Positions 12,868 to 27,346 of a stretch of DNA of 64,000 bases are shown here, in pieces. Both the position numbers and the translations under genes were made by a program. The notes under the pieces are model-generated. The model was not told where the DNA came from and made no database searches. It was given only the letters and a program-made list of their open reading frames with translations. Within the stretch, counting starts at the first letter, position 1, and every line of letters starts with the position of its first letter. Source of the stretch: Denitromonas ohlonensis (lineage in GTDB: Bacteria; Pseudomonadota; Gammaproteobacteria; Burkholderiales; Rhodocyclaceae); the NCBI RefSeq assembly GCF_007625205.1, contig NZ_VMNI01000022.1, forward strand, positions 1-64,000. The letters are read 5' to 3'.

Positions 12868-13015
12868 TGGACAACCCTCCTGTCGCAATCGCGACGGTGG
12901 ATCGGCTTTGCACAGCCGATCCGTTTCGCAAGCGCGGCGCAGTGCTCCGCGAAACCCTTGCTCCACCCTCCCCGAGGGAGGTTCGCGCGCCCTTCGGGCG
13001 GCCGGGCGAGCGCGC

Positions 13016-13384
13016 TCATATCGCCCCCCCTTGCACAAAGCTGTCGCGCTGGCGGGTTTCGGTGCGGCGGATGAGGTATTGCACGGTCACCGACAGGCGC
13101 GAATCGACGGCTTCGACCTCGACCGCCTCGACGGTAATCAGATCCACCAGCCATTGCTGCAAGGCGCCCTGCACAAGGAATTGCGTGGTCGCGGCCAGCT
13201 CAGGACTGTTGGGCGCGAACACCAGCTCACGCAGGCCGCTGCCGAAGTCCGGCCGCATCACCCGCTCGCCGGGCGCGGTGAACACCACCTGCTCGATCAG
13301 GCCGCGAATCCAGGTGGCTTCATCGTCGTCCCGCGTGCGGCCCCGGCCGTCGAACTGGTAGGGGAAGTGGAGTCGGGTGGTCAT
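13016..13384 (-). CDS. GPW/gp25-family baseplate wedge protein
   Basis: The 122-residue protein has the gp25 signature. It includes 'IRGLIEQVVFTAPGERVMRPDFG' (only described in part), where the E-R-x-x-x-P-x-F-G motif is the conserved core of gp25-like proteins that nucleate sheath polymerisation, followed by 'GLRELVF'. Length fits the family. A GAGGAG ribosome site precedes the ATG. It belongs to the same minus-strand operon as the baseplate genes but is separated from the J-like gene by 148 bases of GC-rich hairpins (CCCTCCCCGAGGGAGG type), and from the PAAR-like gene by a repeat array. Confidence 0.9.
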   Translation of the reverse strand: MTTRLHFPYQFDGRGRTRDDDEATWIRGLIEQVVFTAPGERVMRPDFGSGLRELVFAPNSPELAATTQFLVQGALQQWLVDLITVEAVEVEAVDSRLSVTVQYLIRRTETRQRDSFVQGGAI

Positions 13385-13403
13385 GGCGCGCGCTCCTCAA
13401 TGT

Positions 13404-13487
13404 GTAGGGCGGATAAGCCGCAGGCGCATCCGCCGACCGTGCCCCGGCCAACGATGGCGGCGGATGCGCTGCGCTTATCCGCCCTAC
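13404..13487. repeat. GTAG...CTAC inverted repeat (GGGCGGATAAG family)
   Basis: Arms GTAGGGCGGATAAGC and GCTTATCCGCCCTAC face each other, with inner GCGCATCCGCC and GGCGGATGCGC boxes. The same family recurs at 13719 and 14380. Confidence 0.85.
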
Positions 13488-13510
13488 GGGGTGTGGTCAT
13501 GCCAATGGCC

Positions 13511-13590
13511 GTAGGGTGGGCAGCTTGTCTGCCCACCAGCGACGCCCCGCGCGAGGGATGGATGGTGGGCAGGCGAGCTGCCCACCCTAC
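13511..13590. repeat. GTAG...CTAC inverted repeat (GGGTGGGCAG family)
   Basis: Arms GTAGGGTGGGCAGCTTG and CGAGCTGCCCACCCTAC face each other, with inner TGCCCACC and GGTGGGCA boxes. A different sequence family from the flanking units but built the same way. Confidence 0.85.
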
Positions 13591-13675
13591 GGTTGAGTCA
13601 TGTGATCGCCCCGTCGCTGGCGGAAACGAAGTAACGGGAAGCGCAACAGACGACATGCCAGACCGGAACGCCGCA

Positions 13676-13707
13676 TGTTGGGCTTCGCTACGCTCAACCC
13701 AACCTAC
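13676..13707. repeat. Half unit of the TTGGGCT repeat family
   Basis: A single right arm, TGTTGGGCTTCGCTACGCTC followed by AACCCAACCTAC, without its left partner. It matches the arms at 1431-1520 and 14250-14362. Confidence 0.75.
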
Positions 13708-13718
13708 GCGCGTTTCCC

Positions 13719-13805
13719 GTAGGGCGGATAAGCCGCTACGCGGCGTCATCCGCCACCCACGACCGCCGCATCCGGCGGATGGCGCCTGCGGCTTATCCGC
13801 CCTAC
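13719..13805. repeat. GTAG...CTAC inverted repeat (GGGCGGATAAG family), second copy
   Basis: Arms GTAGGGCGGATAAGCCG and CGGCTTATCCGCCCTAC pair perfectly; inner CATCCGCC and GGCGGATG boxes add a second hairpin. It ends 25 bases before the PAAR-like stop codon. Confidence 0.85.
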
Positions 13806-13829
13806 GGAAAATCGTCATGATGTTCATCA

Positions 13830-14150
13830 TCAGCTCCCGATCACCCGCGTCTGCGCCGCGACAGGCAGCAGCGGCGTGCCGTTGGGCGCGCACACGGCCT
13901 GGCTGTCCATCAACACCAGCGGCTGGCCGTTGGACATCACGCGCGTGGCGGCGACCACCCATTGCCCGGTCACGCAGGGCACCGGGCTGCCCGAGACATT
14001 GAAAGGGCAGCCGGCCACCACATAGGGCGCGGTCATCAGCACCGTCGGCTGGCCGCTGACCAGCACGCGTGGATTCGGCGCCGTCGGCGTGGCGCTGCCG
14101 CCGTGGGCACACAGCACCGTGGCACCGAGATGGAGGAGGGGGCCGGGCAT
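13830..14150 (-). CDS. PAAR-like spike-tip protein
   Basis: The 106-residue protein has a repetitive, glycine- and proline-rich pattern with repeated beta hairpins ('VLVSGQPTVL', 'VSGSPVPC', 'MSNGQPLVLMDS'). This is the cone-shaped fold of PAAR and PAAR-like tips that sharpen the spike of contractile systems. A Cys-His-Gly near the start (CAHGG) and later cysteines could provide the metal site at the apex. The start is taken as the ATG at 14150; a TTG two codons upstream is also open. It lies between gp25 and gpV genes, as expected for the tip in eCIS baseplate order, but both sides carry repeat-filled gaps. Confidence 0.75.
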   Translation of the reverse strand: MPGPLLHLGATVLCAHGGSATPTAPNPRVLVSGQPTVLMTAPYVVAGCPFNVSGSPVPCVTGQWVVAATRVMSNGQPLVLMDSQAVCAPNGTPLLPVAAQTRVIGS

Positions 14151-14249
14151 GGTCAAGGGCCCCCACGCTCACTTCGTTCGCTGCCCCCCGAGGGGGCGGC
14201 GCCCGCCCTTGGGGCGGCCCGACGGGCGGGCGGGGTGCCCCAATGAGGC

Positions 14250-14362
14250 GTAGGTTGGGCTGACGCAGCGGGCGTAGGTTGGGCTGACGAAGGAAGCCCA
14301 ACATGCAGCGTTCCTGTCTGGCACTTCGTCTGTTGGGCTTCGCTGCGCTCAACCCAACCTAC
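14250..14362. repeat. GTAG...CTAC inverted repeat (TTGGGCT family), expanded copy
   Basis: The left arm GTAGGTTGGGCTGACG is present twice in tandem (14250 and about 14274), followed by AAGCCCAACA, and answered by TGTTGGGCTTCG and CAACCCAACCTAC on the right. The doubled left arm suggests a local duplication. Confidence 0.8.
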
Positions 14363-14379
14363 GTGGTGCACCGCGATCC

Positions 14380-14409
14380 GTAGGGCGGATAAGCAAAGCG
14401 CATCCGCCG
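14380..14409. repeat. Half unit of the GGGCGGATAAG repeat family
   Basis: Left arm GTAGGGCGGATAAGC plus GCGCATCCGCC, with no CTAC partner arm nearby. Confidence 0.7.
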
Positions 14410-14502
14410 TCGCCCCGGCATCTCTGTGGCCCGCGCCCGCCGAATGGCACACGGGTCGGCGGAGCAAAGCCGACCCTTCGCGAACGTTTGCGTGGGGGCT
14501 GT

Positions 14503-15012
14503 TCATATGACCGTCAACGCGCCGTTGTTGATCGTCACGGTCGGGCCGACCAGCGTGATCATCGCGCCCTTGCCGTTCTGGATGTAGATGCCGGTGTCGT
14601 TCACGATCAGCGTGGCGCCAGTGGCGCTCTTGAGCATGATGCCGCCGGTCGGGCCGGGCATGTCGGAGATGGTCAGGCCGTTCTGCGCGAAGGTCTGGAA
14701 GGTGATGGCCTGGAAGGGCGGCGGCGTGGCGCGGGCGAGCACCGGCACTTCGGCGGCGCTGCCCCAGTAGCAGCCGACCCAGATCGGCTTTTCGGGGTTG
14801 CCCTGTTCGAACTCGATCCACACGCCGGAATTCATCTCGGGCAGCGCGAACATGCCGTTCTGGGTGCCAGCCACGGGCACGCAGGGCATGGCCCAAGCGG
14901 TGGGGATGAGGCCGCCCACATCGAGCACTTCGACGAAAAGCCGCCCCTCCTGCATGGGGTCGATATTGGTCACCACGCGGCCGCGATATTTTCCGTAGAA
15001 CTTCTGGCTCAT
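14503..15012 (-). CDS. gpV-like baseplate spike protein
   Basis: The 169-residue protein is a phage baseplate assembly V / VgrG-type spike. The N-terminal OB-fold carries 'YRGRVVTNIDPMQEGRLFVEV' as a typical opening, then 'PCVPVAG', 'GVWIEFEQGNPEKPIWVGCYW', a hallmark of the OB domain. After residue 115 the sequence turns into short beta repeats (LTISD, GGIMLKSATGATLIVNDTG), the trimeric beta-prism needle. The ATG at 15012 is preceded by AAGGAGGGA, which decides the start. It lacks the N-terminal gpD part; that role is played by the separate gene upstream. No effector extension is present at its C-terminus. Confidence 0.9.
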   Translation of the reverse strand: MSQKFYGKYRGRVVTNIDPMQEGRLFVEVLDVGGLIPTAWAMPCVPVAGTQNGMFALPEMNSGVWIEFEQGNPEKPIWVGCYWGSAAEVPVLARATPPPFQAITFQTFAQNGLTISDMPGPTGGIMLKSATGATLIVNDTGIYIQNGKGAMITLVGPTVTINNGALTVI

Positions 15013-15042
15013 CGTCCCTCCTTGATGCGTCGCCCGTTCTGG

Positions 15043-15292
15043 CGTAGCCCGGATGCAGCGCAGCGGAATCCGGGGACACCGGCCCGATCGGGCACACCGC
15101 CCCACATCGAAACATCGTCCCCGATCGCCACACCGATCCCGGATTCCGGCCTTTGGCCTGCATCCGGGCTACGCCAGAGCGGGTGGCGGTCGTGTCTCAA
15201 GCCGGCATGGTCGAGATCCGCACGTAGCCCCAAGGCAGCGCTGCCCGTTTGAACCGGGGTCCCCGGATTCCGCTGCGCTGCGTCCGGGCTAC
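15043..15292. repeat. Cluster of GTAGCCCGGAT-family palindromic units
   Basis: Three facing units fill the 298-base gap between gpD and gpV genes: a left arm GTAGCCCGGATGCAGCGCAG at 15043, a right arm CTGCATCCGGGCTAC ending at 15172, and a second pair from GTAGCCCC at 15223 to GTCCGGGCTAC ending at 15292. Inner GGAATCCGGG and CCCGGATTCC boxes are shared. Confidence 0.8.
15187..15226 (-). pseudogene. Relic of a second gpD-like 3' end
   Basis: On the minus strand this stretch reads ATCTCGACCATGCCGGCTTGA followed by GACACGACCGCC. It closely mirrors the true end of the neighbouring gpD gene (ATCTCGATTACACCGACG...CCGGCATGA then GACACGACCGC). In frame it gives a VRISTMPA-stop peptide against ISITPTVPA-stop. 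I read it as the last codons of a duplicated or recombined gpD copy, now trapped among repeats. Confidence 0.4.
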
Positions 15293-15310
15293 GCGGGAAG
15301 CGGTCGTGTC

Positions 15311-16453
15311 TCATGCCGGCACCGTCGGTGTAATCGAGATCAGTCCGTTGCGCGTCAGGTTGAAGCTCTGCTTGAACTCGCCGCGCTTGAGCGTGCTGGT
15401 GACGCTGCTCACGTAGTACAGGCCGTCGTAGGCGATGCCGGCGCCGCGCACGCCGACCAGCTTGCGGGCCTTGAGCATGCGGCCGTAGCGCAGCACGTCG
15501 AGCGAGCCCGAGCCGCTGACCGAGTCCTGCGATTTCTTGGCTTCAGCGAGGCCGCGCGAGATGGCCTGCATGGGGTTCATGCTGGCGGTGTCTTTCATCA
15601 TCTTGATATTGGCCAGTGGCGTGCTGAGCACGCCCAGCGGCGGTTGCAGCGGGTTGAGGTTGGGGATGGGAATCGGGATCGGAACCCGCGTCATCTGGTT
15701 CTGAATGAAGACGATCGGCAGCACGCCCTTGGTCGGGTCGAAGCTGAAGTTGAGCGACTCGACATTGGTGTGCGCGTCCATGTCGATGTTGAGCGCCGGC
15801 TGCGGCGGGCCGACTTTGATCTCGGGCCCGAAGTAGGCGATGTTGGTCATCGGCACCTCGCCGGGCTCGATGTAGAACACATGCCCGACCTCCTCGGCCA
15901 TCTGCTGGATGTAGGCCAGATCAGTGCCCTGCTGCGCCGGGATGCGCTGGATCGGGATCGGCACATCGGGGAAAAAGGCCGGAATCGGCAGCGGAATGAT
16001 GCCGAAGGCGGCATATTTGGCGCAGATGAGCGCAAATCGCGCCTCCAGCGGCATGGCCGGATAGGGCAGACCGGAGAAGTCGATCATGTCCATCACCTTG
16101 GACAGATCCTCACCCGTCACGGTGATGCTGCCCGGCTGGCCCTGACTGCCGGCCTGCACCTCCACATTGGTGACCACGCCGTCGAACAGCGGCTGCGGCC
16201 GCCCGCCGAGCGTGACGATCAGCACCACGCGCAGCGGCGGCGTGCCGGCCGAGGTGTTCTGCCCCACGGCGATCAGGAAAATGGTGTTCAGCTCGGACTT
16301 GCTGTTGATCTTGAAGCGCAGCTGAAAGCCGCTGGCCGCGCCCGCCGAGGTGGTGGCGGTGACCGATTCGAGCGCGTCGATCATCATCGCCGGCACCGGG
16401 ATCGGGATCACCGGGCCGATCAACAGCGAGAGGTGAATGGCGCTGCTACTCAC
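15311..16453 (-). CDS. gpD-like hub protein (phage late control D family)
   Basis: The 380-residue hub protein carries the tube-to-spike symmetry match. Signs: an N-terminal hydrophobic, proline-rich beta segment (LLIGPVIPIPVPAMM), 'DALESVTATTSAG..SGFQLRFKI', 'FDGVVTNVEVQ' and a C-terminal 'YYVSSVTSTLKRGEFKQSFNLTRNG', the usual end of gpD-like proteins. The start is set at a GTG preceded by GGGAGG. This GTG overlaps the stop of the LysM gene (GTGA), which supports coupling. A frame running six codons further upstream begins inside the LysM gene and lacks its own ribosome site. With the separate gpV gene it forms the split equivalent of VgrG. Confidence 0.85.
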   Translation of the reverse strand: MSSSAIHLSLLIGPVIPIPVPAMMIDALESVTATTSAGAASGFQLRFKINSKSELNTIFLIAVGQNTSAGTPPLRVVLIVTLGGRPQPLFDGVVTNVEVQAGSQGQPGSITVTGEDLSKVMDMIDFSGLPYPAMPLEARFALICAKYAAFGIIPLPIPAFFPDVPIPIQRIPAQQGTDLAYIQQMAEEVGHVFYIEPGEVPMTNIAYFGPEIKVGPPQPALNIDMDAHTNVESLNFSFDPTKGVLPIVFIQNQMTRVPIPIPIPNLNPLQPPLGVLSTPLANIKMMKDTASMNPMQAISRGLAEAKKSQDSVSGSGSLDVLRYGRMLKARKLVGVRGAGIAYDGLYYVSSVTSTLKRGEFKQSFNLTRNGLISITPTVPA

Positions 16454-16808
16454 CGCTGCCTCCCGGCACACCCTCGGGCAGCGTGATGCGCAGCCGCCGG
16501 CCGACGGTATCGGTCAGGTCGTCGGGGCGCACCGCGCCGTTGCCATCGCACAGGCGCCAGTACTGCTGTGGATCGCCAAGGTACTGGGCGGCGAGGTTGT
16601 CGAGCCGGTCGCCGCTCTCGACGCGGTGTTCCTGCAGCGTCGCGAAGTTATCGGGCGGCGGGATGAAGCGGCGGCGCACATAGGTCACCGCCTCGCCGTC
16701 GGGCCGGGTCCACTGCGCGGTGTCGAGGCCGTGATAGCGGCTGTCGGGCGCAAAGCTCGGCGCGGTCAGCGCATTGGCCTGCATGAAGGCCTTGAGCGGA
16801 TCGGTCAT
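16446..16808 (-). CDS. LysM-domain tube/baseplate junction protein
   Basis: The 120-residue protein has a C-terminal LysM module: 'EHRVESGDRLDNLAAQYLGDPQQYWRLCDGN' (family pattern v..GD.L..iA...lgd...w..l...N), then 'VGRRLRITLP'. The N-terminus has 'SRYHGLDTAQWTRPDGEAVTYVRRRFIP', a pattern seen in small LysM proteins next to gpD in eCIS and related phages. It likely helps dock the hub on the tube initiator, as inferred from family and place. Stop and start codons overlap both neighbours, so it sits in a tightly coupled trio with the tube-initiator and gpD genes. Confidence 0.85.
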   Translation of the reverse strand: MTDPLKAFMQANALTAPSFAPDSRYHGLDTAQWTRPDGEAVTYVRRRFIPPPDNFATLQEHRVESGDRLDNLAAQYLGDPQQYWRLCDGNGAVRPDDLTDTVGRRLRITLPEGVPGGSGE

Positions 16809-17461
16809 GGCAGTCCTCCAATACCCAGGGCGTCAAAGCCGAAAGTCGCGGCCTTGCTCGCCAGTTTTTCGCGCGATTGCAGATAGGCCATGAACAGCCC
16901 GCCGCCCTTGTGATCGAAGCCCAGGTCGTCGATGGACAGCACGCGCAGGCTCAGATTGACCTTGGCGTTGATCGGGTTGAGCGCGGGGTCGAAGGCCTCT
17001 TCGGAGATGGAAAAATCAGTCACCCGCACCGGCGCGATGCGTTGCGCGCCCCACACGAACAGCGCCAGCGCCGACTCCATGGCCGCGATCTCCAGCGTGC
17101 CGGCGGCGGCCAGCGCCTTGCCCGCGAGCAGGTCGGCGGCGGTCGGGTTGACCAGCGATTCGAGCACCGCCAGCTGTGGCGCAATACCGGCAGCGACCAC
17201 GTTGGCATGCTGGTCGGGGAATTCGAGCTGGTCGGCGGCGTCGATGTCGGCCTCCAGGCGGAAGGTCTCGATCGCCGGGCCCTTGAGCCGCAGCGCCTCC
17301 GAGCGTTCCGCCCCCTCGCCCGCGCCCTGCACCTGCAGGCTGCGCGAGAGTTTTTCGGGGTTGTACTGCAGCGCGATCACCCGCCTGACCTGCGCGGACT
17401 GCGGGTCGATCAGCACGATGCCGCCTTTGACGATACGGGGAGACTGGCTGTAGCCGCTCAT
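16805..17461 (-). CDS. CIS tube-initiator protein (contractile injection system tube protein)
   Basis: The 218-residue protein matches the N-terminal CIS tube-protein domain: 'GGIVLIDPQSAQVRRVIALQYNPEKLSRSLQVQ', only quoted in part here; the YNPE.L.R motif is characteristic. The central 'RLKGPAIETFRLEADIDAAD' and the C-terminal 'VNLSLRVLSIDDL' are also family features. In related systems this protein starts the inner tube on top of the baseplate hub, often with LysM fused; here LysM is a separate gene downstream. It begins nine bases after the subtilase stop and overlaps the LysM gene by four bases. Confidence 0.85.
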   Translation of the reverse strand: MSGYSQSPRIVKGGIVLIDPQSAQVRRVIALQYNPEKLSRSLQVQGAGEGAERSEALRLKGPAIETFRLEADIDAADQLEFPDQHANVVAAGIAPQLAVLESLVNPTAADLLAGKALAAAGTLEIAAMESALALFVWGAQRIAPVRVTDFSISEEAFDPALNPINAKVNLSLRVLSIDDLGFDHKGGGLFMAYLQSREKLASKAATFGFDALGIGGLP

Positions 17462-17470
17462 GATGGTTCC

Positions 17471-20092
17471 CTATTTGGCCTTCGCCTTGGCGCGCTTGGG
17501 CTTGGTGGCTTTGGCGCGGCTGGCCGATGCCTTGGCCGGCGCTTTCGCCTTGGTGGCCGCTTTCTTCTTGGGCCGCGCGGTCGCAGGCGCCGCCGCCTGC
17601 AAGGTGATGTCGAGCGACCAGCGGTTGAGCTTGCCAACATCGCGCGCCGCCAGGTCCTGCACCTGCAACTTCCAGGTGCCGGCGATGGGCTCGCCGGCCA
17701 GCGCCTGCAACACGGCCACGTCGGCCGAGGCATAGGTGGCGCGCAGGTTATCGGTGCCGCCGCCGCTGCGGCTGTGCAGTACCACGGCGGTGCCGCCCGG
17801 CGAGTGCAGGGTGACGCGCAGATCGCCGATATAGGTGTGGGTGATGTCGAGCGCCACCGCGATGGCGGCGATCGCGCCTGCCTCGCTCACCGCCAGCGTC
17901 CGTGTGATGCCGGCCGCGCGGTTGTCGGGAATCGCCATGCCCGGCGCGTCTTCGACGAACACCGTGCGCGGCGGTACGAGCACGCCCAGTTCCAGCGACC
18001 ATTCCTCCAGCCGGCCGGTGTCGACGGCCGCCTCGTCGCGCACCGACAACGTCCACGCCCCGGCCGCGTCCTCGCCTTCAAAGCCGCGCAAGGCTGGCAG
18101 CGTCGCCGCCTCCCAAGTGGCCGCCAGATCGTCGCGGCCGCCGCCGGCACGCTCATGCAACACCACCTCGTGACCCGAGGGCGCGCCCAGCGTCACCACC
18201 AGATCGCCGATGTAAGAGTGGCGGATATCCACCGACACGCGCACGAAGCTGACCTGGCCAACGGTGTCCACCTGCAGGGTGTCGGCGATGCCGCCGGGGC
18301 GGTTGTCGGGGATCGCGATGCCGGGGCGCGAGCTCCAGCGGTTGTCGGGCGCGGGCGCGGGGGTCTCGCCCCCGCCGCGCAGTTGCAGGGCCAGCGCCAC
18401 GGCCTGCTCGGCATCGACCCGGCCATGGCCAAACCACGGGCTCCAGCTGCCGTCGGCATGGCCGATGTCGACAAAGTCGCCGCTGTCGAAGGGGGCAATC
18501 GGCGACACATCCCAACTCGGATTGGGGTCGAAGTTGGCCGCAGGCGTGCGCGGATAGGGCGTGGTGTCGAGATCCTTGGCCGCCGTGCGGCGCAGCACCG
18601 AGCCCAGCTCCAGCGCGCTCAGTTCCGGGTGGGCCGACAGCACCAGCGCGGCGATGCCGGCCACCAGCGGGGTGGCGCTGGAGGTGCCGCCAAAGTCATG
18701 GGTGAGCAGTCCGCTCTCGCCGGTGGCGGTGGTGATGCCCCGGCCGGCCACCGGCATCCGGAAATAAGCGTGGCTGTTGCTCGACGGCGCGCAAATCTCG
18801 ATGCCGGTGCCGTAGTTGGAATAATGGCTGCGCTGCGCGGTGCTGGCCAAGGCCGCCACATGCAGCAGGCCCGGTACGTCGACCATGTTGTTAACAAAGC
18901 GGCGCGTCCTCGCCGGCCCGGCCCAGCGCCACGCGCCGTTGGCAAACTCCCAGCCGTGCGTATAGGGCACATCGACATCCGCCTCATGCTGGATCGGGCA
19001 GTTCTCGTTGCCCGCCGCCCACAGCAACAAAATACCCCGCCCGCGCCGCCCGCCGCTGACCGCCAGCTGCGACAGGCGGTTGATGACGGCGGTGGCAAAC
19101 AGGAAACGCGGCACGCTGCCCCAAGAGTTGGACAGCACATCCACCTTGTCGGCCACAAAGCTCAGCGCCGACAGCATCTTCGAATCATTGATGAGCAGCG
19201 ACGGGCCTTGCGACTCCCACTTGATCGGCAGCAACCGGCAGCCCGGCGCCGCGCCCACCGTGAGCACCGCGTCGGCCTCGCCGGCAATCACGCCCGCGCA
19301 GGAGGTGCCGTGGTTGGCGCCGGTCTGATACATGCCCGCGGGCTGGGCATCGACATCGCGACTGGTAACCAGCCGAGTGCCGGCGAAGTAGCCCCAGGCG
19401 GCGAACTTGCCGGGCGAGTCGAAATCGGGGTGGTCGAGCTTGCAGCCATCGTCCGTCACCCCGACCACCACCTCCGGGCTGCCGAAGCTGTCGAGCAGAT
19501 GCCATGCCGCCTCGCAGCGCGCATTGGCGCGTGGATCGACCTCGGGGTGGAAGAAGTGGCCATGCAGATGCCACTGGCTGGCGTAGTCCGGATCACTCGG
19601 CGGCGACAGCTCGTATTTGGTGACCAGATAGTTGAGGTCGTTCTCGGCCAACGCGACGCGCGCGTCGTTCTCGGTCAGCTCGACCACCAGCTTCACCGGG
19701 TTCATGCCGGTATGCTCGGTGAGCTGAAAAAGATAGTCGCGCTCGGTGTAACGCTCGCGCAGCAACAAGCCGTAGCGCCCGGCAAACTCGGCCACCTGAT
19801 CGTTCGTCAGCGCCGTCTTGAAAGTGACGAAAACGCGGTCGGTGATCAGGAAGTCCTCACCCGTGTCCGCCATCTGGTAGGCGTGGTGGGTCGGCCCCAG
19901 CGCCCGCGACCTGGCCATCATCGCATCGAGATCCTGCGCCCGGGCCCGCACCCGCGAAGACCCCGAAGACACCTGCTCGGCATCGTCAGCAATGCCCGCC
20001 CGCTGCAGCGCGTCGGGCAGCGCCCGCGCCACGAAGGCGTCGGGGCGCTTGGCCAGTTCGAGTTTCTGGCCGCCGCGATAGGTATAGGTCAT
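17471..20092 (-). CDS. Subtilisin-like (S8) protease with two P-domains and a histone-like basic tail
   Basis: 873 residues. Residues 1-165 form an N-terminal region that may include a propeptide. The S8 catalytic domain spans about 165-570: Asp214 in VTDDG, His261 in NHGTSCAGV, the oxyanion Asn362 in AAGNEN, and Ser471 in GGTSSATPLVAG, so it should be active. Two proprotein-convertase P-domains follow (about 587-704 and 715-832), each with IPDN..GI and HxYIGDL motifs. The last 40 residues are Lys/Ala repeats like histone H1 or AlgP. There is no signal peptide. It lies between the DUF4157 block and the tube-initiator gene, and its ATG overlaps the stop of a 39-codon ORF. A cargo effector loaded into the tube, or a maturation protease, are the two main readings. 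Both are inference. Confidence 0.85.
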   Translation of the reverse strand: MTYTYRGGQKLELAKRPDAFVARALPDALQRAGIADDAEQVSSGSSRVRARAQDLDAMMARSRALGPTHHAYQMADTGEDFLITDRVFVTFKTALTNDQVAEFAGRYGLLLRERYTERDYLFQLTEHTGMNPVKLVVELTENDARVALAENDLNYLVTKYELSPPSDPDYASQWHLHGHFFHPEVDPRANARCEAAWHLLDSFGSPEVVVGVTDDGCKLDHPDFDSPGKFAAWGYFAGTRLVTSRDVDAQPAGMYQTGANHGTSCAGVIAGEADAVLTVGAAPGCRLLPIKWESQGPSLLINDSKMLSALSFVADKVDVLSNSWGSVPRFLFATAVINRLSQLAVSGGRRGRGILLLWAAGNENCPIQHEADVDVPYTHGWEFANGAWRWAGPARTRRFVNNMVDVPGLLHVAALASTAQRSHYSNYGTGIEICAPSSNSHAYFRMPVAGRGITTATGESGLLTHDFGGTSSATPLVAGIAALVLSAHPELSALELGSVLRRTAAKDLDTTPYPRTPAANFDPNPSWDVSPIAPFDSGDFVDIGHADGSWSPWFGHGRVDAEQAVALALQLRGGGETPAPAPDNRWSSRPGIAIPDNRPGGIADTLQVDTVGQVSFVRVSVDIRHSYIGDLVVTLGAPSGHEVVLHERAGGGRDDLAATWEAATLPALRGFEGEDAAGAWTLSVRDEAAVDTGRLEEWSLELGVLVPPRTVFVEDAPGMAIPDNRAAGITRTLAVSEAGAIAAIAVALDITHTYIGDLRVTLHSPGGTAVVLHSRSGGGTDNLRATYASADVAVLQALAGEPIAGTWKLQVQDLAARDVGKLNRWSLDITLQAAAPATARPKKKAATKAKAPAKASASRAKATKPKRAKAKAK

Positions 20093-20216: not shown

Positions 20217-21581
20217 CTAGAAGCGAAACCGCAGTGAGCCGCCGATGAAGTTGGCCGGCGGCAAGCTGCCCGGCGTGGGTGGGGTATCGGGCGTGGTCAG
20301 TTGGCCCTGCGCGCCAAATTCGAATTCGGCCACCGGCACCTCGCGGCAGGGCGCGCCAACGCGCTCGATCTCGGAATGCACATTGGCCATGGCAGCGACC
20401 ACCTCGGCGTAGCGCGCCTGCGGGGCGAAGGTGCGCGACAGCTCGCTGGCCTCGGGGTCGGGTGGCGGTGGGGTCTGCACTGCCTGGATCGCGTCGCGCA
20501 GGCGGGTGCCGGCCGCCTGCAGCGCCGAGCGCGCGGCGGCCGGGTCCACGGCCCGGCACACGGTGCGCGTGGTCTGCACCGTCAGCCCGGCCGAACCCCG
20601 GCCCTCGGTGGTCATGCTGGCGCGGGCGATGATGCGCACATGCGGCACGGCATTGACGGTGACGCTGAAGGAAAACTCACTGGGGCTGGCGTTGAGCGAG
20701 AACACCACCCGCTCGGCCCCGCGGAACGGCACCGGCAGGCGCACCGCCAGCGACGCCGGCAGGTCGATGGTGACCGCCGCCGCGCCGAGGTTGAAGGCGA
20801 TGGTGGTCGAGGGCAGCGACAGCCCGCCGCCGGTCGCCGGGGCCGGCGCGCCACCGGCCGGCGGCGTGGTGCCCGGTGCGCGGCGCGGACCGGGCGCCAC
20901 CGGCCCCGGCCGTGAGCTGCGCGGCGGCAGGCCGAAATTGGGCGTCAGGCAGGGGTTGCCGGCCACCAGCGAGGCGAGGCTCACGCCCGGGTGACAGGCA
21001 CGGTAGATCTGCAGCAGGCGGGTGCGGCTCACCGCCTCGGGCGAACGCAGGCTGAGCCGGCACAGGGTGCCGATGTCGCAGGTGGCCTCGGCCATCGAGG
21101 CCTGGAAGGACGCGTCATCTTCCGTGCCCGGCACCGGATCGCGCGACACCGCCGGGCTGGCGGCGCTGATCGTCGGCATCGGCGCACCGGTGACCACGCT
21201 GTGCGCCGCGCGCCGGGCCTCGCCCTCGCGCTGGGCGGTGCTCAGATCGGCGCCACCGCCCTGGCGCTGCTGGATCGCGTGGGTCAGCTCATGCGCCAGC
21301 CGTTGCCGGCCGGCCGGGGCGTTTGGCGCATAGCCCTCCGGCCCGAACACGATGTGCCGCCCCACGGTGTAGGCCCGCGCCGACAGGGCCTCTGCGGACT
21401 GTGCCGCGGCGGCGTCGGTGTGCAGACGGATATCGCCCAGATCGGTGCCGAAGCGCTGCTCCATGGCCGCCCGGGTGAGCGCATCGAGCGGCCGCCCGGC
21501 GCGGCGCAGCACGTTGGCGGCGACAGCCGGTACGGCCGCGTGGCCGGTGCGTTGCACCCGGGTGTGGGCCGGCGCGCTCAT
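20217..21581 (-). CDS. eCIS-core (DUF4157) protein, third copy
   Basis: 454 residues. The DUF4157 module occupies about residues 30-110: 'GRPLDALTRAAMEQRFG', 'DIRLHTDAAAAQSAEALSARAYT', then the metallopeptidase-like HELTH at 97-101. Unlike the other two copies it has no N-terminal cysteine cluster; it starts almost directly with the core. After a proline/glycine linker (about 200-235) comes a beta-rich domain of unknown type (around 240-330), a helical stretch, and a C-terminus ending in SLRFRF. DUF4157 proteins co-occur with eCIS and often carry toxin domains, so the C-terminal half may be an uncharacterised effector or an outer coat component. Its ATG overlaps the stop of the second copy. 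Confidence 0.8.
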   Translation of the reverse strand: MSAPAHTRVQRTGHAAVPAVAANVLRRAGRPLDALTRAAMEQRFGTDLGDIRLHTDAAAAQSAEALSARAYTVGRHIVFGPEGYAPNAPAGRQRLAHELTHAIQQRQGGGADLSTAQREGEARRAAHSVVTGAPMPTISAASPAVSRDPVPGTEDDASFQASMAEATCDIGTLCRLSLRSPEAVSRTRLLQIYRACHPGVSLASLVAGNPCLTPNFGLPPRSSRPGPVAPGPRRAPGTTPPAGGAPAPATGGGLSLPSTTIAFNLGAAAVTIDLPASLAVRLPVPFRGAERVVFSLNASPSEFSFSVTVNAVPHVRIIARASMTTEGRGSAGLTVQTTRTVCRAVDPAAARSALQAAGTRLRDAIQAVQTPPPPDPEASELSRTFAPQARYAEVVAAMANVHSEIERVGAPCREVPVAEFEFGAQGQLTTPDTPPTPGSLPPANFIGGSLRFRF

Positions 21582-23164
21582 CGCCCCCTCCGTCGGCCAC
21601 GGCCACCCCGTGCGCGCGGCACGGTGATCGTCACCGCCGGCAGGCCGCCGGCGATGGCCGTCTCCCAGGTCGATTGCTGGCCAGCGTTGCAGCCGTGATT
21701 GGTCTGGCGGTCGTAGAGCCGCTGCTGGCGCGACAGCGTGGTGCGCGCGGCGCGCAGCAGGGCGTCGAAGTTGGGCGCGGTGGACAGCATGCCGTTGGCC
21801 TTGCGGGCCATGGCGCAGGTGAGGTTGAAGTGGCCCTGCTCATGGGCCAGCAGACGACCCGACTCGACGCCGGCGCGGTCACTGCAATCGCGCGCCACGA
21901 CGGTGGCGCACTCGGCGCGCGAGGTGGCCTGGTCACCCCGCGCCCGCGCGCTGGCCGGGCAGGTCCGGCTGGCCGCGCTGCTCATGCCGAAGGTGCCGCC
22001 GACCCGCCCCGCCCGCGCCTCGCGGTCGAAAAAGGTCTGGCAGCTGGCGACGGTGCGATTGCAGCCGTTGTGCGCCGGGTCCGACGCGTTGGCGAACTCC
22101 GGCTTGACCCAGGATCGGCCCGGTGTGAAGAAGGCCTGCACGCCGCGGGTGTTCGGCTGGGTATAGGGGGCGCAGCGGCTCAGCGCGGTGTTGATGGCGC
22201 GCTCGCGCAGCCCGGACGCTGTCATGGCCCCGAAGCGGCTGCGCCGTGGCGCCCGGCCGCTGAAATTGGCCCAGGTGAGGGCCGTTGCCGGATCGCATTC
22301 GGCCGGGTCGGGCGCTGCGGTGGCCAGGCAGGCGCGTTCGGCCTCGACAGCGTCGCGCTCGACGCCCATCGGCAAGGGCGCCCCCTCGAGCGAACTGTCG
22401 AAGGGTGCGGCGTAGCGTTCGCTGATCGGGCCACCGATGCCCCCGGCGGCATGCGCCTCGGCGGGCTCTTCGTCCATGGGCTCCGGGGCGCGCGGTTCTT
22501 CGTCCTCCGGGCGGTTGCTGCGTGTTTCCGGCTCGGGCGCGGCGGCGCTGCGCTGCAGGGTGCCGCTTTGCTGCACCACATGGGCCAACTCGTGCGCGAG
22601 CAAGCCCTGCCCGGCCGCCGTGTCCGGCGCGTAGCGGCCGGTGGCGAACACCAGATGATGGCCAACGGTGTAGGCGTGGGCCGACACCTCACGGGCCGAG
22701 GCGGCGGCCGCGCTGTCGCGATGTACGCGGACGCGACTGAAGTCGTGACCGAAGCGCGGCTCGAAGAAGGCGCGAGCACTCGGGGCCAGCGGCTCGCCGC
22801 TGCGGCCGAGGGTGCGATCCACACTGGCCGGGACAGCGCCGGCACGGGCGCTGGCCGTCTGGCCACGCCGGGTAAGCCGGGGCGTGCCGGTGCGCGAGAT
22901 GGCGCCCTCGACAGCGCCCATGCGCATCACCTGGTCGGCGGCGCGATCGGCCTCATGCTCCAGCGGGTCGTGGCTGGCGCCGATGCTGAGCCGCGCCTGC
23001 AAGCCGACGGCCTCGCGCTGCTTGCAGGCCTCGCATTCGCCGTCCGCGGCGCTGGTGCTGTTGCCGCAGGCGCACTTGCGCTGCAGGAAAGGCGCCGAAT
23101 GCGAAGCCGAAGTCGTCGTTGCCGCCGGCCGGGCCGTTTTGAGGGGGGCGAGTGATGTCGTCAT
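21578..23164 (-). CDS. eCIS-core (DUF4157) protein with C-terminal DUF922-like metallopeptidase domain, second copy
   Basis: 528 residues; the start is the ATG that overlaps the upstream stop (ATGA), though the frame is open much further. Residues 28-48 hold a zinc-ribbon-like cluster (CAC at 31-33 and C44..C47). The DUF4157 core lies at about 118-205 with HELAH at 191-195. An acidic Pro/Glu linker follows (210-240). The C-terminal part (about 295-510) opens with LTWANFSGRAP, contains HEQGHFNL with the HExxH at 441-445, and ends in a 'YDRQTNHGCNAGQQSTW' pattern. That combination resembles DUF922, a putative zinc peptidase family. Two separate HExxH sites in one protein are notable. The tail is Arg/Gly-rich. 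A delivered protease is a reasonable inference. Confidence 0.8.
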   Translation of the reverse strand: MTTSLAPLKTARPAATTTSASHSAPFLQRKCACGNSTSAADGECEACKQREAVGLQARLSIGASHDPLEHEADRAADQVMRMGAVEGAISRTGTPRLTRRGQTASARAGAVPASVDRTLGRSGEPLAPSARAFFEPRFGHDFSRVRVHRDSAAAASAREVSAHAYTVGHHLVFATGRYAPDTAAGQGLLAHELAHVVQQSGTLQRSAAAPEPETRSNRPEDEEPRAPEPMDEEPAEAHAAGGIGGPISERYAAPFDSSLEGAPLPMGVERDAVEAERACLATAAPDPAECDPATALTWANFSGRAPRRSRFGAMTASGLRERAINTALSRCAPYTQPNTRGVQAFFTPGRSWVKPEFANASDPAHNGCNRTVASCQTFFDREARAGRVGGTFGMSSAASRTCPASARARGDQATSRAECATVVARDCSDRAGVESGRLLAHEQGHFNLTCAMARKANGMLSTAPNFDALLRAARTTLSRQQRLYDRQTNHGCNAGQQSTWETAIAGGLPAVTITVPRARGGRGRRRGR

Positions 23165-25182
23165 AGCTGTCCCATGCCGCCCCGTGTTTTGGCCAGATCG
23201 AGCACGAAGGCGTCGAGTCCGGCGATGGCCGGCTCCTCGTCGAGCAGCGCGCCGAGCACCACGGGCAGCTGCGCGCCGACCGGCTGCTTGCGGAAGCTGC
23301 GCCAGTCGGGGATGGCCACCTCGATACGCTTGTCCGGCTTGTCGAGCACGAAGCGCCGCCCGAGCACCACTTTCTTGTCGTGGATGCCCGTGCTCAGGCG
23401 CGTGAAGGCATCGACGAGCACTTGCAGCCGCGCCAGCGCGACGGCATCGGGCTGGCCGAAATCGGTCTCCTTGCCCAGCGTGGTCAGCGCGGTGACCACC
23501 TGCTGCGACAACGCAGGGAAGAGCGACCAGCCGCTCGACCCGCCCTGCACTGACTGGACTTCCGTCAGCAGCACGCCGAGCCGCTCGCCGGCCTGGGCGA
23601 TCGCCTCTTCGGCCAGCGCCACGCTGAGGCGCGCCCGGCGGCGGCCGAGCACCGGTCGCACGGTGAGCTTGCCGGAGAGCTGTTCGGAGTCCTCCAGCGC
23701 CGCCTCGGCGCCCGGCAGCGCATTGCCGCCGTCTTCGGCCACCACGCCGCGAAACGCGAACTGCACCAGGCTGTCGGGGTTCTGTAGCGCCAGCGGCGAG
23801 AGGTCCACATCGAGCTTCTTCGACCCCGCGCCGAGGAACTGGAACAGGCGCTCGTTGGTGTAAATATCGACAATGCCAGGCTGCACCACGTGATGGATGG
23901 CCTCGTGCGCCATCACCGCCGTAAGCCGGGTGGCAAAGCCCGCGTCGGAGGCGGCCTGGGCGGCCTCGGTGGCTGATGCATCGGGCACCTGGCGGACGCC
24001 TTCGGTGCTGCCCACTTCGCCCTCGGTGCGATAGACCGTGGACACCTCGGGCGGATTGAGCATCTGCTTCGGCGACGGATTCTCGCTGCACACCACGATA
24101 TGGCCCTGGCCGTAGTGGGCAGAGGCACCGGTGGCGCACAGGTCGGTGCTGTTGGTCGGGTCGCAATGCACCGTGCCCGAGCCGGGCGGATCGGACACCG
24201 TGCTCTGCCCCAGAAAGCTGGCCGCGGCGCGGTAACGGTCGGCGGTATCGGTGCGGGTTTTTGCGCTGTTGCTGCCCGACCCGAAGCTGTTCTCGAACTG
24301 CCGCTCGATGACCGGCGAGGGATTGGCCAGCAGGTCGGCGGCGCGTTCGAACACGCCCTGGGCCTTGCGGCGCGCGGCATCGATGCGCGTTACCTGATCG
24401 GCGGTGCAGGCGCAGGCCGGGCACACGGCGCTGGCCGGCACCGGCGGCGGTGCGCTCGGCGTGGCGGTGGGCGGCATGCCGGGGATGCGACCGGGTGGCA
24501 GCGCCGGCGTGCCGCCGGGGACCCCCGGCACACCACTGGGCACCGGCGAGGGGGCCGGCGCGCGGCGCAGCACGGCGGCCCCGCCGCGCTGCTGGACGAC
24601 ATGGGTCAGCTCATGGGCGAGCAACTGCCGCCCGGCGAGGGTGCCGGGCGCGTACTGGCCGCCGGCAAAGGCGACATGGCGGCCCACCGTGTAGGCCCGC
24701 GCCCCCACGGCCTGCGCCGAGGCGTGGGCCTGCGCGTCGGTGTGGATGCGGACATCGCCGAAGTCGCGGCCAAAACGCGGTTCGAAGACGCGCCGCAGCG
24801 ACGGGTCCAGCGGGCGGCCGGGCGCCGCGAGGGTGCGGTGCACCGCCGGCGGCGCAGCGCCTGTGCCTGCCGGCGCACTCGCCCGGCGCTGGATGCGCGG
24901 TGTGGTCAGGCCACGGGTGGCCGGCTGGTCATGCCCGGGGTGACGGGGCGCGGGCGGGCGCATCACTTCGGCGGCCACGCGGTCGGCCTCGGCTTCGAGC
25001 GGGTCGTCGCTGCGGCCGATGGTCAGCTTGCGCTGCAGGCCGAGCGCCTGCTGGCGGGTGCAGTCTTCGCACGCGCCGCTCAGCGGCCCCGCCGCCGCGC
25101 CGCAGGCGCACTGGCGCTGCAGCACGCCGGTGTTGTCCGGCGTCGCCGAGGGCGTTGCCTGCAGGGCGGTGGTGTGGTTCAT
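23161..25182 (-). CDS. eCIS-core (DUF4157) protein with second HExxH domain, first copy
   Basis: 673 residues. A zinc-ribbon-like N-terminus (CAC at 25-27, C38..C41) precedes a conserved 'QRKLTIG..DDPLEAEADRVA' helix. The DUF4157 core is at about 118-205 with HELTH at 190-194. Next comes a Pro/Gly-rich linker of about 45 residues, a CPACAC cluster at 254-259, and a long domain (about 260-450) with a second zinc-peptidase motif, HEAIH at 426-430, in 'VMAHEAIHHVV'. The last 220 residues are helical and unassigned. Organisation parallels the next gene but with a different C-terminal domain, suggesting modular exchange behind a shared core. It overlaps the next gene by four bases and the 84-residue gene upstream likewise. 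Confidence 0.8.
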   Translation of the reverse strand: MNHTTALQATPSATPDNTGVLQRQCACGAAAGPLSGACEDCTRQQALGLQRKLTIGRSDDPLEAEADRVAAEVMRPPAPRHPGHDQPATRGLTTPRIQRRASAPAGTGAAPPAVHRTLAAPGRPLDPSLRRVFEPRFGRDFGDVRIHTDAQAHASAQAVGARAYTVGRHVAFAGGQYAPGTLAGRQLLAHELTHVVQQRGGAAVLRRAPAPSPVPSGVPGVPGGTPALPPGRIPGMPPTATPSAPPPVPASAVCPACACTADQVTRIDAARRKAQGVFERAADLLANPSPVIERQFENSFGSGSNSAKTRTDTADRYRAAASFLGQSTVSDPPGSGTVHCDPTNSTDLCATGASAHYGQGHIVVCSENPSPKQMLNPPEVSTVYRTEGEVGSTEGVRQVPDASATEAAQAASDAGFATRLTAVMAHEAIHHVVQPGIVDIYTNERLFQFLGAGSKKLDVDLSPLALQNPDSLVQFAFRGVVAEDGGNALPGAEAALEDSEQLSGKLTVRPVLGRRRARLSVALAEEAIAQAGERLGVLLTEVQSVQGGSSGWSLFPALSQQVVTALTTLGKETDFGQPDAVALARLQVLVDAFTRLSTGIHDKKVVLGRRFVLDKPDKRIEVAIPDWRSFRKQPVGAQLPVVLGALLDEEPAIAGLDAFVLDLAKTRGGMGQL

Positions 25183-25433
25183 GGCTTGACCCCCCGCGCG
25201 ATGCCGCCGGCAATCGCCTGCCCCGTGGCGTAACCGTTGCCGCCATGGGCCACGGCCACGCGACCGGCGCCGATGCGCGCTCGATCACCTCCGCCCGTCA
25301 GCGTGCCGAGCGCACCGGGCTGGGCGAGCAGGCGCTGCAGCTCGGCCTGCACACCGGCGGCGACGGCGTCGGCGTCATGCCGGTCGATACCGGTGAGTAC
25401 CAGGCGGTCGATGTGGAGGACGAGGCGGGTCAT
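25179..25433 (-). CDS. Small conserved-looking eCIS operon protein, unknown function
   Basis: 84 residues. The start is the ATG overlapping the stop of the ATPase gene (ATGA); a GTG two codons earlier is in frame but less likely. The sequence begins 'MTRLVLHIDRLVLTGIDRHDADAVAAGVQAEL', giving a beta strand with L-V-L-x-I-D-R-L and then a helix, and ends in a glycine- and alanine-rich stretch. The strand pattern 'hIdrlvl.g' is shared with short proteins that follow the ATPase in many eCIS loci, as far as I can recall; I cannot confirm. It lies between the ATPase and the DUF4157 block and might act in assembly or loading. Confidence 0.6.
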   Translation of the reverse strand: MTRLVLHIDRLVLTGIDRHDADAVAAGVQAELQRLLAQPGALGTLTGGGDRARIGAGRVAVAHGGNGYATGQAIAGGIARGVKP

Positions 25434-27346
25434 ACCCACCCCCGTGTTTCGGCGTCGGTGGGGGACTTCTCACGCTTGGCCGCTTCGAGGTGGGCGGCGC
25501 GCAGCAAGTGGGCCATGCTCACCGGGGTGCCGGCCTCGGCGGCAAGGAAGGCCGCCGACAGCGCGATGTTGCGGATGTTGCCGCCGGTAGCGTTGAGGCG
25601 CGCCAGTTTCACGAAATCGAGATCGCCCAGCGGCGTGGCGGCGGGGAAGATGCTGCGCCAGATGGCTTCGCGCTGGACGGCGTCGGGGTAGGGGAAGTGC
25701 ACCACGAAGCGCAGCCGGCGCTGGAAGGCGGTGTCGAGCGCGGTCTTGTGGTTGGTGGTGAGAATCGCCAGCCCGCGGTAGGCCTCCATGCGCTGGAGCA
25801 GGTAGCTGACTTCGATGTTGGCGTAGCGGTCGTGGCTGTCCTTGACCTCGCTGCGCTTGCCGAACAGCGCGTCGGCTTCATCGAAGAGCAGCAGCGCGCC
25901 GATGTCTTCGGCGGCGTCAAACACCTTGCGCAGGTTCTTTTCGGTCTCGCCGATGTATTTACTGATCACCGCCGACAGGTCGATGCGGTACAGCGCGAGA
26001 CCAAGTTCGCCGGCCAGCACTTCGGCGGCCAGGGTTTTGCCGGTGCCGCTCTCGCCGCTGAACAAGGTGGCAATACCGAGGCCGCGCGCACCCTTGCCGG
26101 CAAAGCCCCAGTCGTGATGCACGGTGATGCGGTGGCGCGCATGCACGGCGAGCTGTTGCAGGGTGCGGCGCTGGGCGTCGGGCAGGATCAGGTCGTCCCA
26201 GGTGGCGCAGGGCACGATGTGCTGCGCCATGTCGCTCAGCGCCGTGCCGTCGCCGCGGCTGAGGCGGTGCAGCGTGGCGGCAGCATCGGCCGGATCGCTG
26301 CGGTCGACCTGACGCGCGCAGGCGGCGATGCGCCGGGCGCCGAGGCGGTACTGGCTGGCGAGGCTGTCGAGTGTGTCGGCGAGCGTGTCGGCGGCATCAC
26401 CGAGGGCGGCTTGCCAGAGCTGACGCTGGCCGGGGGCGTCGAGTTTGCTGACCGAGTAGTGCAGGCTGTCGCCATCGATGCGCGGGGCGTGGGCACCGCT
26501 GACGACGAGCAGCCCGTCGATCTGCGGGATGAAGCGGCTGAGCGCGGCCGAGGGGGCATCGTCGCCCTGCACGATCAGCAAGCCCGCGCCGAGCAGGGCC
26601 GCTTCGCGCTGCCACAGACTGACCAAGGAGGCCTGTTCGTGCGGCGCGGCAGGGATGTCGGCGGCGCGCAGCGCGAACAGCGCCACGCCGAGCGTCTGGG
26701 CCAGCGTGGCAGCGACATCGCGCTGGCCGTCGGTATCGTCGCCGGAGAGCATCACGGTCGGCAGGCGGCCGGCCTGATCGGCGAGTTGGTCGGCCGCGCG
26801 TTCGGCGATGTCGCGGTGGGCCTCGGCCATCAGGCTGGCCGGCGGCACGGCGTCTAGCAGGGCGGCCAGACGGTGGTCGAGGTAGTTGAGGCCGGCGATG
26901 AAGTGCAGCACCCGCTCGTCGAGCCGCAGGCGGCCGGCGGTGAGGCCGGCGCTCTCGTCGACCTCGATCAAGCGCCAGCGCCGCAGCGGTGCGACCGGGG
27001 TGAGCGCGCTCCAGTGCGGGTCGGGCAGCACTGCCAGCGCGAGGCCGAAGCTGGCCCAGGGCCGCATCGGCTGGCCCGCCGCCTCGCCGCACAGCGCCGC
27101 CACGCGGGCATCCATCTCGGCGCCGGCCACCAGCAGGAGCAGGTCTCGCTCGAAGTCACTGAGCTCGAACAGCGTCACCAGGGTGTCGATGGCCGACGGG
27201 CTGGGCAGGCAGTTCGCCGCGCTTTCGACTTGTTGCTCGGCCTCGGCCACATCGCCCTCGCCCAGCCGCGCCCTGAGCCGGGCGAACTCAGCCACCAGCA
27301 GGTGCTGGTTGGCGGTGGTCCAGTCGAGGTCGAGTGGGGCGTTCAT
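25430..27346 (-). CDS. eCIS AAA+ ATPase
   Basis: 638 residues; start at ATG 27346 (the frame is open upstream but overlaps the DUF4255 gene). The C-terminal AAA+ module is complete: Walker A GESGTGKT at 431-438, pore loop SKYIGE at 462-467, Walker B LLLFDEAD at 485-492, and arginine-finger region FQRRLRF near 541-547. A preceding region (about 195-345) has AAA-like spacing but a degenerate Walker A (SGDDTDGQRD at 201-210), so it looks like an inactive first module. Homologous ATPases (Afp15/Pvc15) are required for cargo loading or assembly of eCIS particles. It follows the DUF4255 gene after seven bases and is coupled to the small gene downstream. Confidence 0.9.
   Translation of the reverse strand: MNAPLDLDWTTANQHLLVAEFARLRARLGEGDVAEAEQQVESAANCLPSPSAIDTLVTLFELSDFERDLLLLVAGAEMDARVAALCGEAAGQPMRPWASFGLALAVLPDPHWSALTPVAPLRRWRLIEVDESAGLTAGRLRLDERVLHFIAGLNYLDHRLAALLDAVPPASLMAEAHRDIAERAADQLADQAGRLPTVMLSGDDTDGQRDVAATLAQTLGVALFALRAADIPAAPHEQASLVSLWQREAALLGAGLLIVQGDDAPSAALSRFIPQIDGLLVVSGAHAPRIDGDSLHYSVSKLDAPGQRQLWQAALGDAADTLADTLDSLASQYRLGARRIAACARQVDRSDPADAAATLHRLSRGDGTALSDMAQHIVPCATWDDLILPDAQRRTLQQLAVHARHRITVHHDWGFAGKGARGLGIATLFSGESGTGKTLAAEVLAGELGLALYRIDLSAVISKYIGETEKNLRKVFDAAEDIGALLLFDEADALFGKRSEVKDSHDRYANIEVSYLLQRMEAYRGLAILTTNHKTALDTAFQRRLRFVVHFPYPDAVQREAIWRSIFPAATPLGDLDFVKLARLNATGGNIRNIALSAAFLAAEAGTPVSMAHLLRAAHLEAAKREKSPTDAETRGWV

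Follow-up and report, generated by a model that had tools for sequence, protein, structure and literature searches.

In the AlgoCIS contractile injection system of Algoriphagus machipongonensis, two DUF4157 cargoes, Cgo1 and Cgo2, fill the tube (PMC8894135). The two proteins have similar N-terminal regions, a central DUF4157 domain and different C-termini, and Cgo1 carries a second HExxH motif in its C-terminal domain (PMC8894135). DUF4157 is a marker of toxins of extracellular contractile injection systems (eCIS), with loading, release, maturation or trafficking proposed as its function (PMC8213781), and a 2026 catalogue takes it as an eCIS marker (PMC12923769); its role in contractile injection systems is called open (PMC11297309, PMC8213781). 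In Streptomyces, a DUF4157 effector elutes together with the spike and the tube initiator (PMC11126660), and Sle2 of Streptomyces lividans, tested against spike-complex proteins, binds the cargo Sle1 (PMC13277306). Elsewhere, Pvc15 loads a cargo with a signal peptide (PMC11495950), and a Parabacteroides DUF4157 cargo has a weak effect, and only with a periplasmic tag (PMC12210884). Here we analyse a stretch of 64,000 nucleotides of Denitromonas ohlonensis (contig NZ_VMNI01000022.1, positions 1 to 64,000; 'the window'), in which three DUF4157 genes, p1, p2 and p3, sit in a contractile-injection operon between an AAA ATPase gene and a CIS_tube-like gene (tube2). In the literature searched, we found no paper that mentions both Denitromonas and contractile injection.

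We regard it as probable that p1, p2 and p3 are cargoes of the surrounding contractile injection system, p3 being the one of which we are least sure. This kind of arrangement is already known from Cgo1 and Cgo2; what we add is the comparison of the slot across relatives, the re-assortment of cores and C-terminal parts, and a linked small gene, sml. The genes concerned are as follows (values are E values unless marked as bits).

25430..27310, minus strand: AAA ATPase with winged-helix part, in a Pvc15-like position, upstream border of the slot; Pfam AAA 1.9e-24, WHD 1.6e-15; the start codon is our choice
25179..25433, minus strand: sml, 84 amino acids, first gene of the slot, unannotated; frames compared across 11 loci, profile hits at the same place elsewhere
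23161..25182, minus strand: p1, 673 amino acids; PF13699 eCIS_core 1e-32, 112.6 bits, relatives aligned; N-terminal Cys4/EAD region 24814-25182, eCIS_core 24580-24813, C-terminal part (C-part) 23164-24579
23893..23907, minus strand: HEAIH motif in the C-part of p1, residues 426-430, with D439 nine residues on; alignments and M35 profile match
21578..23164, minus strand: p2, 528 amino acids; PF13699 5.2e-32, 110.3 bits; N-terminal Cys4/EAD region 22793-23164, eCIS_core 22562-22792, C-part with DUF922-like zincin 21581-22561
21830..21844, minus strand: HEQGH motif in the C-part of p2, residues 441-445; alignment
20217..21581, minus strand: p3, 454 amino acids; PF13699 6.2e-31, 106.8 bits, 11-row alignment and Cys count; the N-terminus is short, eCIS_core spans 21258-21491, and the C-part, 20220-21257, has six invariant Cys and ends in GGSLRFRF
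17471..20092, minus strand: subtilase with two P-domains, an optional gene between p3 and tube2; Peptidase_S8 2.4e-35, P_proprotein 1.3e-42
16805..17461, minus strand: tube2, CIS_tube-like gene that bounds the slot downstream; CIS_tube 3.8e-4 with 20.7 bits, short of the cut-off of 27, position conserved

All three proteins score far above the cut-off of 22 bits for the eCIS_core/DUF4157 family (106.8-112.6 bits) and carry a HExxH motif in the core, HELTH in p1 and p3 and HELAH in p2. They hold the only three eCIS_core domains of their own genome, so that their adjacency is not due to chance. ATGA overlaps chain the AAA gene to sml, sml to p1, p1 to p2 and p2 to p3; for p2, the listed open reading frame (ORF) begins upstream at 24424, and the ATG at 23164 is the plausible start. 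A first-pass annotation, made from the letters alone, had described three adjacent, coupled DUF4157 genes at 20217..25182 with the HEAIH, HEQGH and core motifs, the SLRFRF end and CAC...CxxC N-termini in p1 and p2; the coordinates are exact and every one of these features is present. The N-terminal region common to p1 and p2, and only to these two, consists of CxCG...CxxC followed by an E-x-E-A-D motif. The p3 of the window has neither motif, and the p3 proteins of the congener G002 and of Pseudomonas alcaligenes have the Cys motif. A non-redundant set of 67 DUF4157 proteins that have 60 or more residues upstream was drawn from the loci analysed here and is not a census; the Cys motif is present in 25 of them, the EAD motif in 43 and both motifs in 23.

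The C-parts of p1, p2 and p3 show no detectable similarity to one another: no BLASTP pair is found at E<=1e-3, and profile comparison gives a probability of 0.2-0.3% for each pair. The statement that they are unrelated is thus borne out. The same annotation had named C-parts that are homologous and structural as one outcome that would refute its reading; these two comparisons do not support a single homologous structural family, and no structural Pfam family matches p1-p3. In PHROGs, p2 and p3 have no match at E<=1, and the matches of p1, to a minor tail family (0.037) and a family of unknown function (0.045), do not qualify it as structural.

As in AlgoCIS, then, neighbouring proteins share DUF4157 and differ in their C-termini, inside an operon in which sheath, tube, Pvc16, AAA, CIS_tube-like, gp25 and Baseplate_J genes surround them. 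The likeness is one of described architecture, and the luminal location demonstrated for Cgo1 and Cgo2 (PMC8894135) is a prediction for p1-p3. There are three cargo candidates here against two in AlgoCIS, and the Cgo N-termini are predicted to be disordered, unlike the CxCG...CxxC regions of two of the three proteins here. The architecture also agrees with that of the eCIS-associated toxins (EATs; Geller 2021, Danov 2024), which have DUF4157 near the N-terminus and the effector at the C-terminus and are encoded in or beside the eCIS operon; unlike these, p1 and p3 have C-parts without a Pfam match. Sle2, also a DUF4157 protein genetically and physically coupled to its cargo, is a small partner protein (PMC13277306), whereas the cores of p1-p3 carry large fused C-parts.

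A slot between the ATPase gene and tube2

The place of p1-p3 is fixed across relatives. DUF4157 genes occur in seven of the nine congeners searched, and the order AAA gene, one or more DUF4157 genes, tube2 is found in the window, in these seven congeners and at loci L050, L054, L055, L058 and L059. Within the genus, the gap between the AAA gene and tube2 holds p1, p2 and p3 in G001 and G009, the same three genes plus the subtilase in G003 and G005, and the three without subtilase, split over two contigs, in G006. The slot of G002 holds p2 (frame-disrupted) and p3 together with a payload that resembles L,D-transpeptidases (Tlde1 0.0036, YkuD 0.089, both weak and below cut-off). G008 has one different DUF4157 protein (L038:5893-7848), with a match to Tse3_N of the type VI secretion system (T6SS; 5.1e-8) and sub-threshold zincin matches. 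In the G002 assembly (L033), the core ORF of p2 has 115 amino acids behind the core and the C-part lies in another frame.

Slots outside the genus differ more. A Comamonadaceae locus (L054) has a HEVLH protein and p3, a gammaproteobacterial metagenome-assembled genome (MAG; L055) has p3 alone, P. alcaligenes (L058) has p3 together with a short protein and one that matches OmpA below threshold, and an Azoarcus MAG (L059) has p2, a HEVLH protein and a p3 relative (L059:7884-8912) that keeps a linker remnant and the full C-part and has no eCIS core. L050 (G032) lacks p3; its single DUF4157 protein matches a transglutaminase family below threshold. Immediately after the HEVLH payload comes a gene of about 175 amino acids (L054:7030-7557 and L059:7346-7867); the two proteins look alike by eye, have no Pfam match over cut-off, and are candidates for an immunity or partner gene that travels with this payload.

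We also surveyed regions from 20 of the 34 other genomes of the class with an eCIS_core match, mostly the better-scoring ones. Seven of the 20 regions have the order AAA gene, sml, one or two DUF4157 genes, tube2 (in L111 with a subtilase-type hit between), five have an AAA gene but neither sml nor tube2, and eight have no AAA gene, with a contig end near in some. The effector-type families matched by C-parts in slots include Aspzincin_M35 (3.6e-16) with Tse3_N (2.3e-8) in L125 (G105), transglutaminase (3.1e-6) in L119 and OmpA (9.7e-8) in L109. EAT14 likewise has a transglutaminase-like C-terminus, the family matched over cut-off by L119 and below it by L050.

Wherever p3 occurs it is the last payload, directly before tube2 or the subtilase (11 of 11 loci); the subtilase lies behind it in four of these. 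The subtilase (17471-20092) may itself be a fourth cargo, or else a protease that acts in processing. Besides Denitromonas, four other lineages retain the p3 C-part, once without a core (L059). Because the p3 C-part served as the query for loci L052-L059, the p3 counts of these loci are not independent; independently of that query, p3 is present in six of the seven congeners and in none of the seven class slots.

The first gene of the slot, sml, was overlooked in the first-pass annotation, although it is chained by ATGA overlaps to both the AAA gene and p1. Its product has the pattern M-T-R-hydrophobic-H-I-D-x-L-V-L and matches no Pfam family at E<=1. It is present at all 19 loci of this subtype with the junction between AAA and payload genes in view, eight of which supplied seed sequences of the profile and so match by construction: the window, G001, G002, G003, G005, G008, G009, G032, L054, L055, L058 and L059, together with L109, L111, L113, L115, L119, L120 and L125 (E 2e-4 to 1e-9). 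In G006 the junction is out of view. The profile search did not find sml at L051, L106, L107, L108, L114 and L122, where an AAA gene lies near a DUF4157 gene and no tube2 recognisable as of this type lies within the stretch. We take sml to be a candidate cargo adaptor.

In a set of 25 DUF4157 proteins from 15 slot loci, in which G002 and G008 are the only close congeners of the window, all 300 pairs of cores match at E<=1e-3 (median identity 55%), against 16 of 300 pairs of C-parts; ten of these 16 lie inside the p3 family and two span just 26 and 76 residues. Counted from the pair list, the C-parts fall into 15 clusters. In a tree of the cores (32 rows, 77 columns), the seven proteins with a p3 C-part, a group set by C-part after the identities had been seen, do not form one clade: those of G002 and P. 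alcaligenes fall among p2-type cores (support 99/98), those of Denitromonas and a MAG form a separate group (98/94), and that of the Comamonadaceae is separate again. A single clade of p3 cores is rejected (p-AU 0.0175), indicating that the p3 C-part rides on at least two core lineages.

The first-pass annotation had proposed a comparison of core and C-terminal divergence among relatives. Of 15 such comparisons with congeners, nine show a C-part more conserved than the core, three a C-part within 2 points of it and three a less conserved C-part (p1 of G003, 79 versus 87%; p2 of G003, 85 versus 91%; p2 of G006, 64 versus 79%), so a generally faster drift of C-parts is not seen within the genus. 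Because the C-part is mostly as conserved as the core or more so, the striking change is the replacement of domains, as in G002 and G008. Exchange of whole domains favours payloads over structural parts. The idea of a common loading or coat module joined to three payloads thereby gains support in its main part, from mostly unrelated C-parts on homologous cores, the replacement in G002, the re-assortment and the precedent of Cgo1 and Cgo2; for a coat role we found nothing, and one particle carrying all three would be a further prediction.

The C-parts are rare. Among 369 genomes of the class, eCIS_core is found in 35, the p1 and p3 C-parts in one each (their own genome in both cases) and the p2 C-part in two; in the second of these it lies in an ORF of about 212 amino acids with HEQGHFD, in which no core was seen. 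Distant relatives may be missed, because only a restricted set of first-look candidates is scored in each genome. We rejected phage carriage, as p1, the protein searched, is without a match among 50,697 phage records, and viral or plasmid carriage, as the p1 and p3 C-parts, the two searched, are found neither in viral contigs (by patterns) nor in 72,556 plasmid records. A place in anti-phage defence was also rejected: p1-p3 have no PADLOC match, and what the subtilase hits (2e-10) is a subtilase model.

Resemblances of the C-terminal parts

The C-part of p1 looks like an Asp-zincin protease of the M35 type. Like Aspzincin_M35 (PF14521), which is present as a true domain at the same slot in G105, it has HExxH, an Asp at +9 and an N-A/P-D-S motif; unlike that family, it misses the Pfam model and has about 190 extra C-terminal residues. 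Compared by hhalign with a profile of nine M35 sequences, which come from nine of 14 loci picked by a motif filter and include one (L101) below the family cut-off, the p1 C-part profile scores 35.1, at 41.2% probability, over columns 171-227, a match that covers HExxH, the Asp at +9 and the N-P-D-S motif. Column shuffles reach at most 18.7 (100 shuffles) and shuffles that keep the HExxH block at most 29.4 (60 shuffles), and the p2 and p3 profiles score 22.1 and 21.9 against the same M35 profile. With other settings the p1 score is 31.2, at 66.5% probability. The motif residues are in register and invariant in six rows, and we take the Asp at +9 of HEAIH to be the third ligand.

The C-part of p2 looks like a DUF922 zincin. 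On its own it matches DUF922 (PF06037) at 5.6e-6 and 27.0 bits, and as part of the whole protein at 24.7 bits, so the earlier label 'DUF922-like' holds for the C-part at threshold only, and the full-length protein falls short of the cut-off of 27. In contrast to a full DUF922 domain, p2 covers just model positions 89-153 of 153.

The C-part of p3 has no Pfam match. Its six Cys are invariant in 11 rows, all of which end in G-G-S-L-x-F/L-x-F, and it is probably beta-rich and Cys-paired, with disulfides that would join these residues. The end GGSLx(F/L)xF with its terminal Phe (20220-20243, 11 of 11 p3 relatives) resembles the C-terminal signal of outer-membrane beta-barrels, which would make this strand a possible signal for insertion into the outer membrane.

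Invariant Cys number six, ten and six in the C-parts of p1, p2 and p3, and Cys makes up 1.27%, 3.06% and 1.73% of their residues, compared with 0.76% in the structural proteins together (45 Cys in 5953 residues, a total that leaves out the Baseplate_J row 10294-12869). Together with the weakly L,D-transpeptidase-like C-part in a congener, the invariant Cys give slight hints of an action in the envelope of the target cell. Full-length p1 matches no chain of known structure at E<=1; C-part profiles gave weak matches to solved structures, the best being p3 with chorismate mutase (0.0041 over 92 positions), which we do not believe.

Cargoes, loading factors or proteases

We infer how p1-p3 might be loaded and ejected. 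The DUF4157 core, preceded in p1 and p2 by the Cys4/EAD region, would be the part recognised by a loading apparatus made up of the AAA ATPase and, putatively, sml, with docking at the spike or tube-initiator end; the C-terminal effector would then be threaded into the tube and released on contraction. In this way p1 would deliver an Asp-zincin (M35-like) protease, p2 a DUF922-type zincin and p3 a Cys-paired, probably beta-rich domain, and the stretch from AAA to tube2 would be a payload slot that exchanges genes for core plus effector. A stronger version, which we put forward tentatively and hold to be doubtful as a whole, is that AAA-sml-[DUF4157-X]n-tube2 is a dedicated effector-exchange slot, in which the core would be a universal, re-assortable loading tag, sml a shared adaptor that passes cargo with the tag on to the AAA ATPase, and the tag dispensable if supplied in trans, as the core-less p3 of the Azoarcus MAG would have it. 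Recombination just behind the core would then join it to any new warhead.

Several observations weigh against the cargo reading or parts of it. The array chained by ATGA overlaps contains no dedicated immunity gene. Within the genus, C-parts are not fast-evolving, being 79-98% identical to those of the window in 13 of 15 comparisons. The toxicity of Cgo1 is independent of its HExxH motifs, including that of DUF4157 (PMC8894135), so zincin motifs need not be the killing activity. For the C-part of p1 no Pfam family is listed even at E<=10, a threshold at which the HMMER filters drop most weak hits, the cut-off of Aspzincin_M35 is not reached and the M35 match has a probability of just 41.2%; the C-part of p2 barely reaches that of DUF922. 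Among single structural genes, the P2_I-like and T4_baseplate genes have Cys shares of 1.31% and 2.12%, and the 1.27% of the p1 C-part is no higher. Finally, p3 is missing from all seven class slots and from G008 and G032, and the trio itself is therefore a feature of a lineage.

The last point also bears on the possibility that some or all of p1-p3 are loading factors or chaperones that act in trans, as adaptor, plug or tube-lumen spacer, which we consider unlikely. Danov et al. speculate that DUF4157 is a chaperone in cis or trans (PMC11297309), and Sle2 may link a DUF4157-free cargo to the baseplate (PMC13277306). The best candidate for such a part would be p3, which as the constant last member beside the tube-initiator gene could help to load p1, p2 or the subtilase. 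Its invariable last place and its C-part, kept across lineages and once core-less, fit this role and make p3 appear less clearly a payload than p1 and p2, within the bounds set by the retrieval of L052-L059 with that very C-part. Its absence from the seven class slots and from G008 and G032 shows, however, that the machine does not need p3, and in L055 no DUF4157 protein other than p3 was seen in the stretch from AAA to tube2, so that p3 would have nothing else there to load. Less probable still, and in our view very unlikely, is that the core HExxH forms an active metallopeptidase for which the C-parts serve in targeting or processing, or that the proteases mature the particle and are not injected. 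The DUF4157-type domain of VgrG2b is toxic in the periplasm through its HExxH (PMC6899460), HELTH or HELAH is kept in the cores of p1-p3 and nearly all aligned relatives (HEVTH in p3 of G009), and a subtilase shares the slot at some loci. VgrG2b shares this class of HExxH but bears it as the C-terminal warhead of a T6SS spike, whereas here the core precedes other C-parts. Cores are joined to many kinds of C-part, some of which are not proteases (transglutaminase, OmpA). With the core as warhead, the second HExxH that p1 and p2 bring in an unrelated context would be redundant. The subtilase is missing from seven of the 11 p3 loci, and the result for Cgo1 cited above argues against the DUF4157 motif as the active one.

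If p1-p3 are cargoes, as we favour, the locus and its relatives form a natural experiment, in which the same machine occurs with one, two or three of them, a given C-part is found on different cores, and one C-part has no core at all. With sml, the idea of a loading tag becomes directly testable in environmental bacteria, and we offer several C-terminal families without a Pfam match as candidate effectors.

The surrounding operon and its neighbourhood

The remaining features of the operon are listed from its upstream end.

30707-32407, minus strand: sheath (Pfam)
30167-30691, minus strand: tube, gp19 (Pfam)
29452-30162, minus strand: T4_baseplate (Pfam)
28661-29455, minus strand: gene without family; no Pfam match (scanned as 28661-29593) and no PHROG match
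27354-28664, minus strand: Pvc16 (Pfam)
2117..16808, minus strand: rest of the baseplate block (Pfam, NCBIfam, PHROGs), including two Baseplate_J genes, a P2_I-like gene (below cut-off) and DUF6519
16446-16808, minus strand: gene with a PHROG baseplate wedge match (1.7e-4), whose product we take to be LysM-like
15311-16471, minus strand: gene in the VgrG position, no family
13016-13384, minus strand: gp25 (Pfam/NCBIfam)

Between the VgrG-position gene and gp25 (13381-15163), the listed minus-strand ORFs look like frame artefacts, and a hidden PAAR-type gene may lie there. The G+C content is 0.49 at positions 1-2000, the downstream end of the operon, against 0.63-0.74 elsewhere in the window. 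Ten ORFs were scanned in 32964-63949; nine of these, beyond the upstream end of the operon, match families that are usual on chromosomes: DUF3306, molybdopterin oxidoreductase, 4Fe-4S protein, histidine kinase, sigma-54 regulator, LysM protein, topoisomerase, TonB-dependent receptor and UvrA-like ATPase.

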